64,000 nucleotides of DNA from Pseudomonadota bacterium (GTDB taxonomy: Bacteria; Pseudomonadota; Gammaproteobacteria; Steroidobacterales; Steroidobacteraceae), in assembly GCA_021838635.1 (NCBI GenBank), contig JAKCDC010000003.1, positions 82,956-146,955 of the forward strand, given 5' to 3'. Below the pieces are notes generated by a model that was not told the DNA's origin, did no database searches, and saw nothing but the letters and a program-made list of their open reading frames with translations. Position 1 is the stretch's first letter. Each line of letters opens with the position of its first letter. Shown here piece by piece: positions 33,594 to 43,530 of the stretch. A program made the translations under genes and the position numbers.

Positions 33594-36146
33594 TCACGCT
33601 TCCAGCGCGGCCGTCATGGCCTCGTCCTCGCTCCAGCGGGCGCCACTGTCCATCAGCGCCTGCAGCTGCTGCGGCGCCAGCACGCCGCTGAGCTGACGCA
33701 GAATCCCCGCTTCGATCATGACCTTCGCCGGGCTGCGTCCGGCGAACTCCTTGGAAAAGAACGCATGCGCGTAGCCGATAAACTGGGCGGCGCGCTCGAA
33801 GCGCTCCTGGCGGGCGGCGATGGTTGCCAGGTGCTGCATGCCGCCGGCGATCAGCACGGTATCGAGTTCGCTGTCCTCGGCGAGCGGCAGTCCCTCGCGC
33901 AGCGCAGCACTCGCGGCGTCGATTTCATCATGGGCGATGAGATACCCGGCAAGGTTGCACAGCGCGTGTCCAAGCAGCCCCGTGCGCCGCGCGGCGCGCG
34001 CCAGCGCGATCACTTCGTTGGCACCCGCAATGGCCGCATCGATGCGCCCCTCCGCGAACTGCACCTCGGCACGATAGATGAGCGCCCGCCACGCCCAGAA
34101 GTCCGCATGCGAGCGCTGCTCGGCGGCGAGCGCCTCATCGAGCCGCGCGCGCGCCGCCTCGTACTGCCCGGCTACGGTGTGCGCGATGCCGAGATTGGTC
34201 AGACAGAGCGCAAAGCTCTTCGGCTGCTCACCGGGCGAGAGCATCCGCCGGCTCTCCTGAAGCGCCTCCAGGCCCTCCTCCGGCGCCCCGGTGCGAGCCA
34301 GATTCAGGCCGTAAAAGGCAAGCGCCCGAGCCAGATCCAGCGGCTCGCCTGACTCGCGCAGCAACGCGACGGCGCGCCGCAGCGCCGGCACGGCGCGGCC
34401 ACGCGGCTCGCCCGTGGAGAGAAAGCCATAGCCGAACCACAGATGCGCCTCGAGCGAGCGCGGCGTCTCCCCGTTCAGCGCGGCGGTGGCGCGCTCCAGG
34501 CGCGAGCGGCCCTCGGGCATGAGGGACAGCAGATACCACAACAGGTACGAGGAGGCCGCCAGCTCGACCCCGATCTGCGCATCGCCATCGGCGCCAAAGG
34601 CCCAATCAAGCGCGACGCGCACATTGTCGATCTCCGGGCCGACCTTCTCCAGCCACTCCACCGAGGGCGTCCGCTCCCAGACCAGGTGCGCTGCGTGCAG
34701 CAGGTCGCGGAAATACCGTGCATGCAACCGCGCCAGCGGCCCGAACTCACCGCTGTCGGCGAGCTTCTCCATCGCGTAGGCCTGCGTAGTCTCCAGCAGC
34801 CGATAGCGGCGCTGCGGTCCGGAGGTATCGGCGACCACGAGCGATTTGTCGACGAGTTCGGCGATCCGGCTGACGACCTCCCACTCCGGCAGCGCCGCAT
34901 CGGCAACCACCTGCCCGGCGGCCTCCAGCGTGAAGCTGCCGGCAAACACGGCCAGCCGACGCAGCACGACGCGATCCGGTTCGGCGAGCAGCCGATGGCT
35001 CCAGTCGAGCGTGGCCCGCAGCGTCTGGTGGCGTGGCAGCGCCGTGCGCCGCCCCCCGGTGAGGACGTGAAAGCGCAGATCGAGCCGCTGCGCCAGGCCG
35101 TCAATGCCAAGTGCCGCGGAGCGCGCCGCGGCCAGTTCAATCGCGAGCGGGATGCCATCGAGGCGCCGGCAGATCATGGCGACGGTGGCCGCATTGCGCT
35201 CGTTGAGCTCGAAGTGCGGATCGGCCGCTTGGGCGCGCGCGACGAACAGACGCACCGCGCCGTGGCGCTGGGTGCTGGCAAGACCGGCGATGTGCTCGGC
35301 CGGAAACTCCAGCGGGCGCAGCCGCAGCGTGCATTCCCCCTCGATGCCCAGCGGCTCCTGGCTGGTGGCCAGGATACGCACCTGTGGTGCCGCGGCGAGC
35401 AGCGTCTGCGCCTCGCGTGCCGCGGCGCCAATCAGATGTTCGCAGTTGTCGAGCACCAGCAGCAGCTTGCGCTCACGCAGCGCCGCGGCGAGGCGCTCGC
35501 CCGTCCACCGTCCCGTGCCACTCTGCAGACCGAGCGCGGCATGCATGGCGCTCGCGACCAGTTCCGGATCGGTAAGCGGGGCAAGCTCCGCGAGCCATAC
35601 CCCGTCGGGAAACTCCTCGAGGGCCTCGCGCGCGGCCTCCAGCGCGAGGCGGGTCTTGCCGATGCCACCGGTGCCGACCAGCGTCACCAGCCGATTGGGC
35701 CGCAGCAGCTCGTGCACCGTGGCAAGGTCAGCCTCGCGACCGATGAAGTCAGAAACCGCCGCGGGCAGATTGGTCGGCGGCATCTGCGCTTCGGTCGCGC
35801 CGCGGGCACTGTCGGTCTCGGACAGCTCGCGCACCTCGCCGGTGAAGCGGTAGCCGCGCAGCGGCACGGTGACAATGAGATTGCGGTCTTTGCCGAGCGC
35901 CTTGCGCAGCGCCGAGATCTGCACCTGGATGTTGCTTTCCTCGACCACGATGCCCGGCCAGGCGCGCGCCAGCAACTCTTCTTTGGTCACGAGGTCGCCG
36001 TGCGCCTCCAGCAGCACCAGCAGCACGTCGAACGCGCGGGAGCCGAGCGCAACGGGCTTATCGCCGCTGCGCAGCTCGCGCTGGCGGATCAGCAGCCGAA
36101 AGCGTCCGAACTCGAGGCAGTTCGCGCCTCGCGCAATACCGTGCAT
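33594..36146 (-). CDS. Winged-helix regulator with ATPase and TPR domains
   Basis: A large cytoplasmic regulator of 850 residues from ATG 36146; an in-frame GTG at 36182 would add 12. Domains in order: OmpR/CadC-type winged helix (about 10-105; LEFGRFRLLIRQREL, RAWPGIVVEESNIQVQISAL, VPLRGYRFTG), STAND/NB-ARC-like ATPase with Walker A VGTGGIGKTRLAL (near 158) and Walker B LLLVLDNCEHL, then helical TPR-like repeats to the end. The signal and targets are unknown. It is divergent from the xyl-operator-linked secreted protein, so it could act on it. Confidence 0.85.
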   Translation of the reverse strand: MHGIARGANCLEFGRFRLLIRQRELRSGDKPVALGSRAFDVLLVLLEAHGDLVTKEELLARAWPGIVVEESNIQVQISALRKALGKDRNLIVTVPLRGYRFTGEVRELSETDSARGATEAQMPPTNLPAAVSDFIGREADLATVHELLRPNRLVTLVGTGGIGKTRLALEAAREALEEFPDGVWLAELAPLTDPELVASAMHAALGLQSGTGRWTGERLAAALRERKLLLVLDNCEHLIGAAAREAQTLLAAAPQVRILATSQEPLGIEGECTLRLRPLEFPAEHIAGLASTQRHGAVRLFVARAQAADPHFELNERNAATVAMICRRLDGIPLAIELAAARSAALGIDGLAQRLDLRFHVLTGGRRTALPRHQTLRATLDWSHRLLAEPDRVVLRRLAVFAGSFTLEAAGQVVADAALPEWEVVSRIAELVDKSLVVADTSGPQRRYRLLETTQAYAMEKLADSGEFGPLARLHARYFRDLLHAAHLVWERTPSVEWLEKVGPEIDNVRVALDWAFGADGDAQIGVELAASSYLLWYLLSLMPEGRSRLERATAALNGETPRSLEAHLWFGYGFLSTGEPRGRAVPALRRAVALLRESGEPLDLARALAFYGLNLARTGAPEEGLEALQESRRMLSPGEQPKSFALCLTNLGIAHTVAGQYEAARARLDEALAAEQRSHADFWAWRALIYRAEVQFAEGRIDAAIAGANEVIALARAARRTGLLGHALCNLAGYLIAHDEIDAASAALREGLPLAEDSELDTVLIAGGMQHLATIAARQERFERAAQFIGYAHAFFSKEFAGRSPAKVMIEAGILRQLSGVLAPQQLQALMDSGARWSEDEAMTAALEA

Positions 36147-36267
36147 GAAATTGGCTGGTCCAAAGGTCTCGGGACGGCACACCGGCTCGCGGATCCCACC
36201 GCGAAAGTGTAACGCAACTGCCCCACCCCCCGGGTACCAAGCGTGCGCCCCGGGCGCCCGGTCACGC

Positions 36268-38989: not shown

Positions 38990-39751
38990 TCAGCCGAGCG
39001 TGCCAAAGAACAGCAGCGTCTTGTAGGGAAAGACGACCTGGCCGTCACGCTGATGCCGCTCGAACACCTCGCGCAGACCGGCGAGCAGCGGCGCATGATC
39101 CGGATGTCCGGGCTCGGGCACGTACGAGGACGACATGGCCCGACCCTTCAGCCCCTCGAAATCGAACACCTGCTGATTGGCGAAGACCCGGCACTCAGGC
39201 TCACGGCCAAAGAAGCGCAGCATGGTAGGCCCGTACGCCCGCATGCTGCGCACCTGGTCGTACTCCGGCGCATAGCGGCGCAGCAGCGCCTCGTAGTCGG
39301 CCTGCAGTGGCGCCGGGTCGTCGGTGCGCTCGTTCCACAACAGCGCCACCTGCCCGCCCTCGACCAGAATCCGCAGCGCCTCGTGCCGTGTCTTCTGCGG
39401 ATCGAACCAGTGGAAGGCCTGCCCAGCGGTGAACCAATCGACGCTCTGCGATGCGAGCGTCGTCGCCTCGGCGGTACCCGCCACGCTGGTGAATCCCGCG
39501 CGGCCGCCGAGCGACTGCTCGGCCGCCTCGCGCATATCGCGATTCGGCTCGACGGCCCAGACCCGCAGCCCCGCCTCGAGCAGCTGCGCGGTGAGGATCC
39601 CGGTGCCCGAACCGACATCAGCGACACGAGTCCCCGGTACCAGTCCACGCGTCTCACGCAGGAACTGCAACGCAGCACGGGGATACTGCGGCCGATACTT
39701 CACGTAATCGGCGACGCGACTGGAAAAGCGCTGAGTGGAATCTACGGTCAT
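38990..39751 (-). CDS. Class I SAM-dependent methyltransferase
   Basis: A 253-residue protein with motif I VADVGSGTGILTAQLLEAG, a following acidic strand end VWAVEPNRDM, and the post-core segments SVDWFTAGQAFHWFD and VALLWNERTDDPAPL, typical of the UbiE/Methyltransf_11 group of small-molecule methyltransferases. Substrate unknown. It converges with gph, with a 24-bp gap, and no partner genes are adjacent. Confidence 0.85.
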   Translation of the reverse strand: MTVDSTQRFSSRVADYVKYRPQYPRAALQFLRETRGLVPGTRVADVGSGTGILTAQLLEAGLRVWAVEPNRDMREAAEQSLGGRAGFTSVAGTAEATTLASQSVDWFTAGQAFHWFDPQKTRHEALRILVEGGQVALLWNERTDDPAPLQADYEALLRRYAPEYDQVRSMRAYGPTMLRFFGREPECRVFANQQVFDFEGLKGRAMSSSYVPEPGHPDHAPLLAGLREVFERHQRDGQVVFPYKTLLFFGTLG

Positions 39752-39879
39752 TCCCCATTATACGGCCGGCCCCTGGCGCGCGGGCGTGAGTGCGGAGCAC
39801 GGCACGGTCACAGGAGTGGCGTGCGGATTCCTCCACATGGTTCACACTCGGTTCAGGGCAAACATGCGAAACTTCCCCA

Positions 39880-39985
39880 CGCACCGGTGCTGAGCGTGGT
39901 TCCCGGACGGCGCAAGATTCTCCCCGTGCGCCACCCTTTATTGAGCCTCGTCCCGGATTCGAGCCACCTCGCCCGGTGCGCCTTC
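39880..39985 (+). ncRNA. Candidate small RNA, copy 1 (diverged)
   Basis: Outer stem CGCACCGG (39880-39887) with CCGGTGCG (39973-39980), inner stem GGCGCA (39909-39914) with TGCGCC (39927-39932). The inner loop contains UCUCCCC, complementary to Shine-Dalgarno cores. TTCA repeats lie at 39841 and 39852 and an extended -10 (TGCGAAACT) 8 bp before the stem. There is no U-tract, so this copy may be degenerate. Confidence 0.45.
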
Positions 39986-40110
39986 CCTCCCTCCTGAAGA
40001 CACGCCGATGCACCCGCACATCGGCCATGCCACTGTGCTCGGGTTGTACCACACGGGTGGGATTCCGACGATTCACGCTGAGTTCAGTGCATCGCTGCGA
40101 CACTGACTGT

Positions 40111-40213
40111 GCACCGGAGCCACGTGCGGCTCCCGGACGGCGCAACGCCCCCCCTCGTGCGCCACAGTGTTTTGACTCGTCCTGGATGTGAGTCGCTTGC
40201 TCCGGTGCTTTTT
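40111..40213 (+). ncRNA. Candidate small RNA, copy 2
   Basis: Predicted promoter: TTCA at 40072 and 40083, extended -10 TGCGACACT ending at 40104, so the transcript should start near 40111. That is the first base of the outer stem GCACCGGAGC (40111-40120), which pairs with GCTCCGGTGC (40199-40208) followed by TTTTT. Inner stem GGCGCA (40139-40144) with TGCGCC (40158-40163) presents the loop ACGCCCCCCCUCG. A third small stem (GACTC with GAGTC) lies between them. Confidence 0.6.
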
Positions 40214-40315
40214 CCCCGCCCACCACCACCACACCGTGACCGACCCGGCATTGCGTGCACACTTTTTTTCAGCCGATTCACGCTGAGTTCAGCGCATCGC
40301 TGCGACACTGACTGC

Positions 40316-40418
40316 GCACCGGAGCCGCGTGCGGCTCCCGGACGGCGCAACGCCCCCCCTCGTGCGCCACAGTCTTTTGACTCGTCCTGGATGTGAGTCG
40401 CTTGCTCCGGTGCTTTTT
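40316..40418 (+). ncRNA. Candidate small RNA, copy 3
   Basis: Near-identical to copy 2, 103 nt with the same boundaries: outer stem 40316-40325 with 40404-40413, then TTTTT, the same inner hairpin and C-rich loop, and the same upstream TTCA repeats and extended -10. The few differences lie outside the paired bases. Confidence 0.6.
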
Positions 40419-40519
40419 CCCCGCCCACCACCACCGCACCATGACCGACCGGGCATTGCGTGCGCACTTTTTTTAGCCGATTCACGCTGAGTTCAGCGCA
40501 TCGCTGCGACACTGACTGT

Positions 40520-40621
40520 GCACCGGAGCCGAGTGCGGTTCCCTGGACGGCGCAGTTACTCCCCGTGCGCCACAATTCTCAGACGGGTCCTGGATTTGGG
40601 TCGCCCCGACCGGTGCTTTCT
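40520..40621 (+). ncRNA. Candidate small RNA, copy 4
   Basis: Promoter elements are identical to copies 2 and 3. Outer stem shortened to GCACCGG (40520-40526) with CCGGTGC (40610-40616), followed by TTTCT. The inner GGCGCA/TGCGCC stem is kept but its loop reads GUUACUCCCCG, different from copies 2 and 3 and again containing CUCC. Stem conserved with loop changed is the pattern of a functional RNA. Confidence 0.5.
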
Positions 40622-40631
40622 CTCCCCCCCA

Positions 40632-40674
40632 AAATGCAGACGGGGTTCGCCAGTGGCGAACCCCGTCTGCATTT
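40632..40674. terminator. Perfect 20-bp bidirectional terminator
   Basis: Arms 40632-40651 and 40655-40674 are exact inverted repeats around a 3-base loop, with an A-run on one side and a T-run on the other, so it can act in both directions. It ends the lipoprotein gene on the minus strand and insulates it from the small-RNA array. Confidence 0.85.
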
Positions 40675-40707: not shown

Positions 40708-41412
40708 TTATTCGCCGACGGCCTGCGGAGCGAAGTTCACCGTAGTGGTCCAGGTGGGCACCTGGGTTGAGTTCGTGGTGATGGCAAGCTTCACAGTGGC
40801 CTTGCGGTCACGCGAGGCCAGCACGACCCCCGTCTGCGTGTCGCAGGACGCCGCAATCGGGAAGGTGCTGACGATGCGCACTGCCTTGGCGGCCAGCACA
40901 TCGGCGCGGCTGCTGCTGGCTGGCTCGATCTTAGCGCCGGTGATGTTCGTGTCCTGCGCCGTCGCGAACTCGTAGTTCACCGCACCCTGCCACACGCCGC
41001 GCTTCGGTGCGCCCGCAGTGCTGATGACCGCATCCTTGGTGAGCGGCGGCTGGGTCAGCTGGACCTCGATCGGTTGCGCCGGGAAGAGCTTCTGGCGCGT
41101 CGCCATGCCCTGCAGGCGCCACACCGCCAGATACTGCACCGGGAAGCTGCTCTTGCAGCGCACCGGGTACATGGTGCGGAACTGGGTGCCGGTGCCGTCC
41201 GAGTGCAGCGGCACCTTGCCGCCGCCGCCGACCTGGAACAGATAAATCGGCTGACTGACCAGGGCGCCGGACTTCACCGTCGCCGAGATCGGATACATGC
41301 CGATGTCCGGATTGGCCTGGATCTGTGTCGGCGTCTGGTTTTGCACCTTGACGCCGCAGCCCGCCAACGCCAGCGCTGCTACACCGATTGAAAAACGAGC
41401 TACCTGACGCAT
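40708..41412 (-). CDS. Lipoprotein of unknown function
   Basis: ATG 41412 follows a strong GGGAGGCGGC ribosome site and gives 234 residues with a lipoprotein signal (MRQVARFSIGVAALALAGC). I do not recognise the mature domain. It is rich in beta-prone segments, has two possible disulfide cysteines (PVRCKSSFP; AASCDTQTG), and includes FQVGGGGKVPLHSDGTGT. No hydrophobic helix follows the lipobox. It is monocistronic, bounded by a terminator on each side. Confidence 0.75.
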   Translation of the reverse strand: MRQVARFSIGVAALALAGCGVKVQNQTPTQIQANPDIGMYPISATVKSGALVSQPIYLFQVGGGGKVPLHSDGTGTQFRTMYPVRCKSSFPVQYLAVWRLQGMATRQKLFPAQPIEVQLTQPPLTKDAVISTAGAPKRGVWQGAVNYEFATAQDTNITGAKIEPASSSRADVLAAKAVRIVSTFPIAASCDTQTGVVLASRDRKATVKLAITTNSTQVPTWTTTVNFAPQAVGE

Positions 41413-41538
41413 GCCGCCTCCCTCCGAGACGCGATTTTGTGAACGAAATCGACCCAATGCCAATTTCGGAGTCTGACAACTAATTGCGACACTGACAAGA
41501 GTCTCGAGCGTAACCGGAACCAAGGCCGTAAAACAAAA

Positions 41539-41592: not shown

Positions 41593-41796
41593 CTATTTTT
41601 TCTTGCGTGCGCCGGCCCGCTTGGCCGCCCGGAAGGAAATTCCAGCGCGCATGGCCTTCTGCTGCACCGCGGCCGGGGTACGGCCGAGCTTCTTCGCCAC
41701 TTCAGTCGTCGGAGTGCCCGCCTTCGCGAGCGCCTTCAAAGTCTTCAGTTCACTGGCGCTCCAGGACGCGCCATCGTTCGGGGGACGTTTCGCCAT
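41593..41796 (-). CDS. Small basic GcrA-like helix-turn-helix protein
   Basis: From ATG 41796 the product is 67 residues and strongly basic, ending AKRAGARKKK. An upstream in-frame start at 41844 has no support. Its core (SWSASELKTLKALAKAGTPT, then EVAKKLGRTPAAVQQKAMRAGI) follows the pattern W-x(4)-L-x(2)-L-G-x(3)-IA-x(2)-LG-RT-x-AV-x-K of the GcrA N-terminal/Myb-SANT-like DNA-binding motif. GcrA itself is a cell-cycle regulator in Alphaproteobacteria. Whether this fragment-sized protein binds DNA or RNA is inference. It has its own terminator. Confidence 0.8.
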   Translation of the reverse strand: MAKRPPNDGASWSASELKTLKALAKAGTPTTEVAKKLGRTPAAVQQKAMRAGISFRAAKRAGARKKK

Positions 41797-41952
41797 TATA
41801 GACTCCCAAATACACCCAACTACAGGGTTTCGGGAGCGGATCATACACGTATTTTAATGCCCGTCCAACTTCTTTCAGCCAACGTGTTGTAGGAATGGCG
41901 CGCCGGTGTTCCGCGAATGTGACAGGTCAGAATGGCGGCCAAAACAGGAGTT

Positions 41953-43415: not shown

Positions 43416-43437
43416 GGTAATTGCTCCAATGGGTTCA

Positions 43438-43530
43438 TTGAGCGCCGTGTGACACACAGTCGGGCCGCTCGAGCCTGGCAGGTGGCAGCCGAAGAACGGC
43501 CGCCGGCCCGTCGCAACGCTCCTCGAGTAG
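43438..43530 (-). ncRNA. SAH riboswitch in the ahcY leader
   Basis: On the minus strand the leader contains CGAGGAGCGTTGCGACGG, then GCCAGGCTCGAG, then ACGGCGCTCAATG, in the order and spacing of the conserved SAH riboswitch (Rfam SAH_riboswitch) blocks. GAGCG near the 5' end can pair with CGCTC at the 3' end to form P1, and GCTCG lies where the pseudoknot strand is expected. High SAH should raise ahcY expression. It ends 22 bp before the ahcY start. Confidence 0.9.

Follow-up and report, generated by a model that had tools for sequence, protein, structure and literature searches.

Four plus-strand units of one design lie between two minus-strand genes in the 64,000-nucleotide stretch of DNA analysed here (the window), and the question that they raise is whether they are genes for RNA and, if so, what would control them and what they would act upon. 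Comparison with related genomes leads us to regard them as members of a real sRNA-like family, one that is new to Rfam and belongs to a known kind; there is also a good lead to its regulator. By this comparison the units and their relatives share a conserved RNA fold, a direct-repeat box, a −10 hexamer and the spacing that joins them; homologues occur genus-wide, with fourfold copies in two related genomes. The explanation that we favour, and hold to be moderately likely, is that the units are PhoP-activated sibling sRNAs that would pair with G-rich ribosome-binding sites, possibly that of phoP itself. A well-supported RNA family missing from Rfam 15 is found here in a single genus of proteobacteria assembled from metagenomes; the lead to its regulator is strong and its targets are testable. 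Its natural series of one, two and four copies bears on why sRNAs get duplicated, and its C-rich versus other loops on the same stem bear on how loop sequence decides targets.

Organization of the array

The units are found inside positions 39839-40640, exactly where a sequence-only reading of the window had placed them, and its interpretation of them as paralogous RNA genes agrees with our results. Each unit consists of TTCA-N7-TTCA, then, past a 12-nt spacer, a NANACT hexamer, and, another 6-7 nt on, GCACCGG. In every unit GCACCGG pairs with CCGGTGC, and the unit so closed measures 97-99 nt. The features are as follows.

38990-39751, minus strand: methyltransferase gene, flank of the array
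39840-39856, plus strand: copy 1 direct repeat GTTCAC-N5-GTTCAG (PhoP-type box)
39868-39873, plus strand: copy 1 −10 hexamer GAAACT, 12 nt past the second TTCA
39881-39979, plus strand: copy 1 structured RNA, match to covariance model R1 (101.5 bits)
39915-39926, plus strand: copy 1 apical loop, C-rich (UUCUCCCC)
40071-40087, plus strand: copy 2 direct repeat ATTCAC-N5-GTTCAG
40099-40104, plus strand: copy 2 −10 hexamer GACACT
40111-40208, plus strand: copy 2 structured RNA, R1 match (100.5 bits)
40145-40157, plus strand: copy 2 apical loop, C7
40276-40292, plus strand: copy 3 direct repeat
40304-40309, plus strand: copy 3 −10 hexamer GACACT
40316-40413, plus strand: copy 3 structured RNA, R1 match (101.1 bits)
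40350-40362, plus strand: copy 3 apical loop, C7
40480-40496, plus strand: copy 4 direct repeat
40508-40513, plus strand: copy 4 −10 hexamer GACACT
40520-40616, plus strand: copy 4 structured RNA, R1 match (93.9 bits), single-sequence fold not better than shuffles
40555-40565, plus strand: copy 4 apical loop (UUACUCCCC)
40632-40674, no strand assigned: perfect 21-bp inverted repeat at the array end
40708-41430, minus strand: lipoprotein-like gene without Pfam match, other flank of the array

The TTCA-N7-TTCA repeat had been reported for all four units and is present in all four. The gap behind it had been given as 11 bp; the distance from the second TTCA is in fact 9 bp to TGCGACACT and 12 nt to the −10 hexamer. 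A single extended −10 had been described for all copies, with the stem starting 7 bases further on; both descriptions suit copies 2-4, and copy 1 departs from them in having TGCGAAACT and a stem that begins one base later. The TTTTT noticed after copies 2 and 3 is indeed there, and is replaced by TTTCT in copy 4 and by GCCTTC in copy 1. Over a length of 205 bp, copies 2 and 3 share 95% identity.

A fold conserved through compensatory changes

Taken singly, copies 1-3 fold better than 200 dinucleotide shuffles (z −3.9, −4.1 and −4.9, respectively), and copy 4 does not (z −0.97, with 35 shuffles as good). Copies 2 and 3 fold well on the minus strand too (z −3.7 and −3.5), so that single-sequence energies do not pick the strand. 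It is the comparative evidence, that is, covariation across relatives, that places the fold beyond chance. We aligned 47 units, 29 from the 22 genomes of the window's clade (clade A) and 18 from 18 genomes of its sister clade (group B), leaving out a match of just 66 nt (L137, in G048). In this alignment, which was fitted to the model's own structure and whose pairing score is favoured thereby, 97.3% of the 1167 pair cells are standard pairs; controls in which the partners were slid gave 20.6-41.8%, and none of 500 shuffles reached the real alignment on any measure. Both sides have changed at 13 of the 25 pairs, and these are the compensatory stem changes in relatives on which the sequence-only reading had staked its proposal. 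A smaller alignment of 36 sequences has 11 of 26 pairs changed on both sides, and RNAalifold, run on a MAFFT alignment of 18 units, arrived at a closely similar structure, 4 of its 26 pairs having changed on both sides.

The consensus is one interrupted rod with a single apical loop. The apical helix covaries between the clades, one of its pairs being GC in 29 units and CG in 17. Another pair is G-U in 25 of the 47 units, which favours the plus strand. An internal CUCCC / GGAUU(U)GAG region, with an AUUU-type bulge on its 3′ side, is kept in both clades.

Promoter and 3′ end

The promoter is as constant as the rod. An exact TTCA-N7-TTCA lies within 60 nt upstream of all 47 aligned units, 45 of which had been recovered by models of the RNA only, the other two (L139 and L221) coming from a pattern that required the box. 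It ends 24-25 nt before the RNA in 46 units and 28 nt before it in one. NANACT follows 12 nt past the box in 47 of 47, hexamer positions 2, 4, 5 and 6 being A, A, C and T. No such box stands upstream of the shortened match L137. These are direct-repeat promoters of the OmpR/PhoB class, as the sequence-only reading had supposed, and their spacing also suggests that transcription would start near the beginning of the stem, where that reading had put it.

In the window's genome, TTCA-N7-TTCA-N13-ATACT with at most one mismatch has four matches, all of them array promoters, and the backward control has none. A looser pattern, GTTCACNCTNNGTTCAG with at most two mismatches, finds the four array sites and 14 others, the backward control giving 7; the 14 extra sites were unconvincing by eye. 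Elsewhere in this genome, a segment of 44 bp (G000:C1:23977-24020) is 82% identical to query positions 46-88, covering the RNA start and 5′ part (E 4.6e-4).

At the other end of the RNA, four or more of the six bases that follow are T in 18 of 29 clade-A units and in 2 of 18 group-B units. A hairpin of the GGGGTTCGCC/GGCGAACCCC type, similar to the inverted repeat at 40632-40674, follows many clade-A homologues, and the repeat itself probably serves the array and the convergent gene as a common terminator.

Distribution, copy number and synteny

The window's genus is represented by 58 genomes, the window's own among them, and all searches together place the RNA family in 41. A DNA search of these 58, with a query that included the promoter, gave matches in 23, some of them short. 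When 217 genomes of the family were searched with model R1, built from the RNA alone of 18 units, 29 matched, every one of them belonging to the window's genus. Model R2 (36 units) matched 29 of 396 genomes of the order, in one of 72 genera, again the window's, and added nine genomes. Model R3 matched nothing but the window's genome among 369 genomes of the class, so that R1-R3 gave no match outside the genus in the family, order and class sets; sequences that built a model match that model by construction. Diverged relatives could have been missed, because filters were strict for more than 40 genomes and some 10-20 candidates were scored per genome. A pattern of promoter plus start, run over the 217 genomes, added three more of the genus (G003, G012 and G053); the RNAs of G003 and G012 were then matched by R2, and G053 is known from its matched promoter and start alone. 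Genus matches of this pattern without a fitting −10 (for instance G005, G007, G018, G019 and G056) were not counted. A pattern scan of public genomes returned 56 stretches, of which 21 contigs of the same genus were used and the other 35 taken as chance.

Genomes without a match are often incomplete (G034 is an example). Others are at least 95% complete (G015, G025, G031 and G039), which means that real absence or strong divergence also occurs. The promoter-plus-start pattern also matched 10 genomes of other genera; the rod fold was absent from the three matches inspected (G161, G067 and G176), and the other seven were judged from the matched strings. In one of the three inspected, at G161:C95:46580-46624, TTCA-N7-TTCAG, CATACT and GCACCGG stand without a rod shortly before an ORF.

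Arrays of four copies are present in two genomes, the window's own (G000) and G035. G046 has two tandem copies, G048 two separate shortened matches, and the other model-matched genomes one copy each. In these four genomes, then, there appear to be at least two homologous genes derived from duplication, as the term sibling sRNA implies. Between G000 and G035 the two first copies share 95% identity, against 71-76% for either of them with the remaining copies; the two copies 4 are 91% identical, and copies 2/3 are 94-97% alike within and between the genomes. By these copy-by-copy identities, types 1, 2/3 and 4 at least seem to predate the divergence of the two species.

The surroundings are conserved as well. 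In clade A the order is PGP, methyltransferase, RNA, lipoprotein-like, gcrA-like, ahcY and metK, as far as the contigs reach, and one subclade has, upstream of the locus, an ORF resembling the group-B tyrosine phosphatase. In group B the RNA is often found between a tyrosine phosphatase (identified by Pfam in L131) and a same-strand GFA-like gene. Such a gene lies downstream of the RNA at 14 of 18 loci, 13 counted from ORFs and L133 from the sequence, and both proteins scanned carry the Pfam GFA domain. At L068, L069, L070, L071, L129, L130, L132 and L139, about 26-66 nt separate the RNA from this gene.

Is the RNA a 5′ leader or cis-regulatory element of the gene that follows it, and not a free sRNA? 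In group B its frequent position between the phosphatase and the same-strand GFA gene makes a leader role there a live rival, and 16 of 18 group-B units have no T-run behind them. However, in the window, and wherever a clade-A locus extends to the next gene, this gene is on the opposite strand, leaving the RNA no gene to lead. Each of copies 1-3 is followed by another promoter, and a terminator-like hairpin comes next at many clade-A loci. As an account of the family we judge a leader quite unlikely.

It is barely conceivable that the units are DNA-level inverted repeats or a mobile element with no RNA gene, even if rod-like inverted repeats and tandem copies could suggest this. The promoter-to-start geometry is fixed, the homologues are syntenic, the covariation includes G-U pairs, and no transposase or integrase was found among the eight neighbouring proteins scanned. 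We reject a chance repeat or mobile element on the grounds of covariation, fixed promoter geometry and synteny.

A PhoP-like candidate regulator

The window's genome encodes at least 11 full-length OmpR-type regulators, 11 of which were scanned for an upstream box. One of these has PhoP as its best NCBIfam match, and the adjoining downstream kinase has PhoQ, both scores being below the curated cut-offs (219 of 336 bits for the PhoP-like protein, 222 of 497 for the PhoQ-like one). The phoP-like gene is preceded by a PepSY gene. Ahead of this PepSY-phoP-phoQ-like operon stands ATTCAG-N5-ATTCAC, with TACGGT 12 nt further, and TTCA-N7-TTCA-N12-TAnnnT has this single occurrence in the genome.

The CreB tags (TTCAC-N6-TTCAC) and the Streptomyces PHO boxes are look-alikes of the array box. 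PhoB was rejected as the regulator, since 3.7 kb at its own locus here (L169) contain no box even with one mismatch allowed, and so was CreB, none of six scanned regulators scoring above the CreB cut-off.

Across the genus the box is found upstream of phoP orthologues at 31 of 50 loci (26/29, 3/15 and 2/6 in three sets, the first of 30 loci being reduced to 29 by one without upstream DNA). Sorted by RNA type, it is present in all 19 clade-A genomes with a usable phoP upstream stretch (three of the 22 have none), in 1 of 17 group-B genomes (G048), and in 11 of 14 genomes where no RNA was found. At group-B phoP loci such as L203, L200 and L215 there is no direct-repeat box, though the RNA promoters of the same genomes have it. 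Autoregulation has apparently been rewired there.

The geometry can be compared with that of the Salmonella PhoP promoters of architecture I, phoP and mgtA among them, which are described as having a single direct repeat that overlaps the −35, in direct orientation and 12 nt from the −10, or 11 in one promoter (PMC3335776). The array promoters resemble this account in the 11-bp period of the repeat, its orientation and the 12 nt to the −10. They differ in the half-site, given as (T/G)GTTTA for architecture I and mostly (A/G)TTCA here, GTTCA and GTTTA being one base apart (PMC3335776). In Yersinia, phoP is reported to be autoregulated from a promoter before the upstream gene (PMC2650801), and the PepSY arrangement would fit autoregulation of that type.

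An alternative that we find unlikely keeps the sibling sRNAs but puts them under a different OmpR-family regulator, one to which phoP would also answer in clade A. The box is kept at the sRNAs and missing from phoP in 16 of 17 group-B genomes, so that either phoP lost its autoregulation there or the regulator is another, and the window's genome has OmpR-type regulators in number. Against this, the forward box (at most one mismatch, 700 bp upstream) is absent from all ten other full-length regulator loci scanned, and the layout, together with the GTTCA versus GTTTA half-site, is close to PhoP architecture I as described (PMC3335776). For clade A, promoter comparison makes control of the array by the PhoP-like regulator probable, without making it certain.

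The apical loop and its predicted targets

The sequence-only reading had the loop always complementary to Shine-Dalgarno-like G-runs. Four or more consecutive C occur in the apical loop of 28 of 29 clade-A units versus 2 of 18 group-B units, which makes the C-rich loop a trait of the window's clade and not of the family, and the word "always" too strong.

When the pairing energies of the loop with gene start regions were ranked in 17 clade-A genomes, phoP was the top-ranked partner in 14 and the runner-up in 3, the comparison covering only 3-9 gene starts per genome, phoP included and some of them guessed. In the window's genome the phoP start region gives −18.2 kcal/mol, a value equalled or bettered by 2 of the 45 window genes, or by 5 of the 45 if starts are chosen leniently, so phoP is not singled out. 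In 15 group-B genomes, each with its own loop, the values for phoP run from −3.9 to −14.1 kcal/mol and overlap the weaker clade-A ones. Relatedness among the genomes, and the readiness of C-runs to pair with whatever ribosome-binding site is strong, make the predicted pairing with phoP a lead only.

The mechanism that we favour can thus be outlined. Four sibling genes would give non-coding RNAs of about 97-99 nt, each from its own promoter, in which a GTTCA-type direct repeat stands 12 nt before the −10 and would overlap the −35 position. The activator, at least in the window's clade, is probably the PhoP-like regulator of the PepSY-phoP-phoQ-like operon, as shared box and spacing indicate. 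The closed rod would present its one C-rich apical loop, which may plausibly pair with G-rich Shine-Dalgarno regions and lower translation, and the four copies may well serve a higher dosage and a variety of loops. The ribosome-binding site of phoP might conceivably be among the targets, in which case a negative feedback would result.

Over the two clades, conservation is highest in the internal CUCCC / GGAUUUGAG module and not in the loop; the CCCG and GGATTnG columns are kept over the 47 units, and the apical loop differs by clade. This could point to an RNA that works by binding a protein, as sponge or scaffold, with the loop secondary. We consider this improbable, as the clade-A loop is strongly conserved too, and C-rich.

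A reading that we regard as rather doubtful, if worth stating, combines several of these observations: the RNA would be a PhoP-controlled module with an exchangeable head, whose loop and regulatory wiring have changed together on a conserved chassis. In clade A the head would be the C-rich loop, carried by four siblings in two genomes, which would repress phoP and G-rich messages in a dosage-dependent feedback. In the sister clade an unrelated loop would be borne by the same rod and promoter, usually before a GFA gene, with phoP devoid of the box and the predicted pairing of the loop weaker.

Relation to known small RNAs

A scan of the window against Rfam 15 at gathering thresholds, the comparison that the sequence-only reading had proposed, matched an SAH riboswitch alone and no RNA of the array. 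Six homologous loci were also scanned permissively, and the five sub-threshold matches all lay outside the RNA, so that no Rfam family matches it in the window or at these loci. Word searches of the open-access literature, which cannot exclude such a description, found no title or abstract describing this RNA family.

Among published RNAs, those nearest to the family in its proposed mode of action are sX13, NmsR, SisA-D and PinT. Xanthomonas sX13 is described as a structured sRNA of 115 nt whose C-rich loops act on G-rich motifs near translation starts; it forms three stem-loops that all bear a C-rich loop, its gene is found downstream of polA, and its occurrence is restricted to the Xanthomonadaceae (PMC3771888). 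The array RNA is likewise intergenic and structured, with a C-rich loop, its G-rich pairing being predicted from energies alone; it has one rod and one apical loop in place of the three stems and three loops described for sX13, and it is not at a polA locus, being flanked by a methyltransferase and a lipoprotein-like gene, with gcrA-like, ahcY and metK nearby (PMC3771888). An sX13-like action of the array RNA would be an analogy.

Small RNAs tied to PhoP are known from enterobacteria, and MgrR is under PhoP control. It is reported to be controlled by Mg2+ (PMC6239178), and PinT to take part in PhoP negative feedback via ugtL (PMC12838224). Both are thus PhoP-linked, as is proposed here, and their sequences were compared with the array through the Rfam scans only; the route described for PinT passes through ugtL (PMC12838224), and the speculative target here is phoP itself.

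Tandem siblings with anti-Shine-Dalgarno motifs are described for Neisseria NmsR, which differs in having two copies, stringent-response control and another structure (PMC5362039). The alphaproteobacterial alpha-R8 / Caulobacter SisA-D RNAs are also four siblings and share an anti-Shine-Dalgarno 10-mer; in the published account this 10-mer is an unpaired stretch and the Sis promoters are without conserved motifs, whereas the array motif is an apical loop and the four array promoters are alike (PMC12559287).

Other features near the locus

The SAH riboswitch (RF01057) occupies 43433-43530 on the minus strand, upstream of ahcY, with 44.4 bits against a cut-off of 37. A protein of 83 aa with weak GcrA-like similarity is encoded at 41593-41844 (minus strand) and is strongly conserved next to the RNA locus in relatives. 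At 33594-36182, again on the minus strand, is a gene for a large regulator-like protein with winged-helix, ATPase and TPR regions, which is also found near the RNA locus in relatives.
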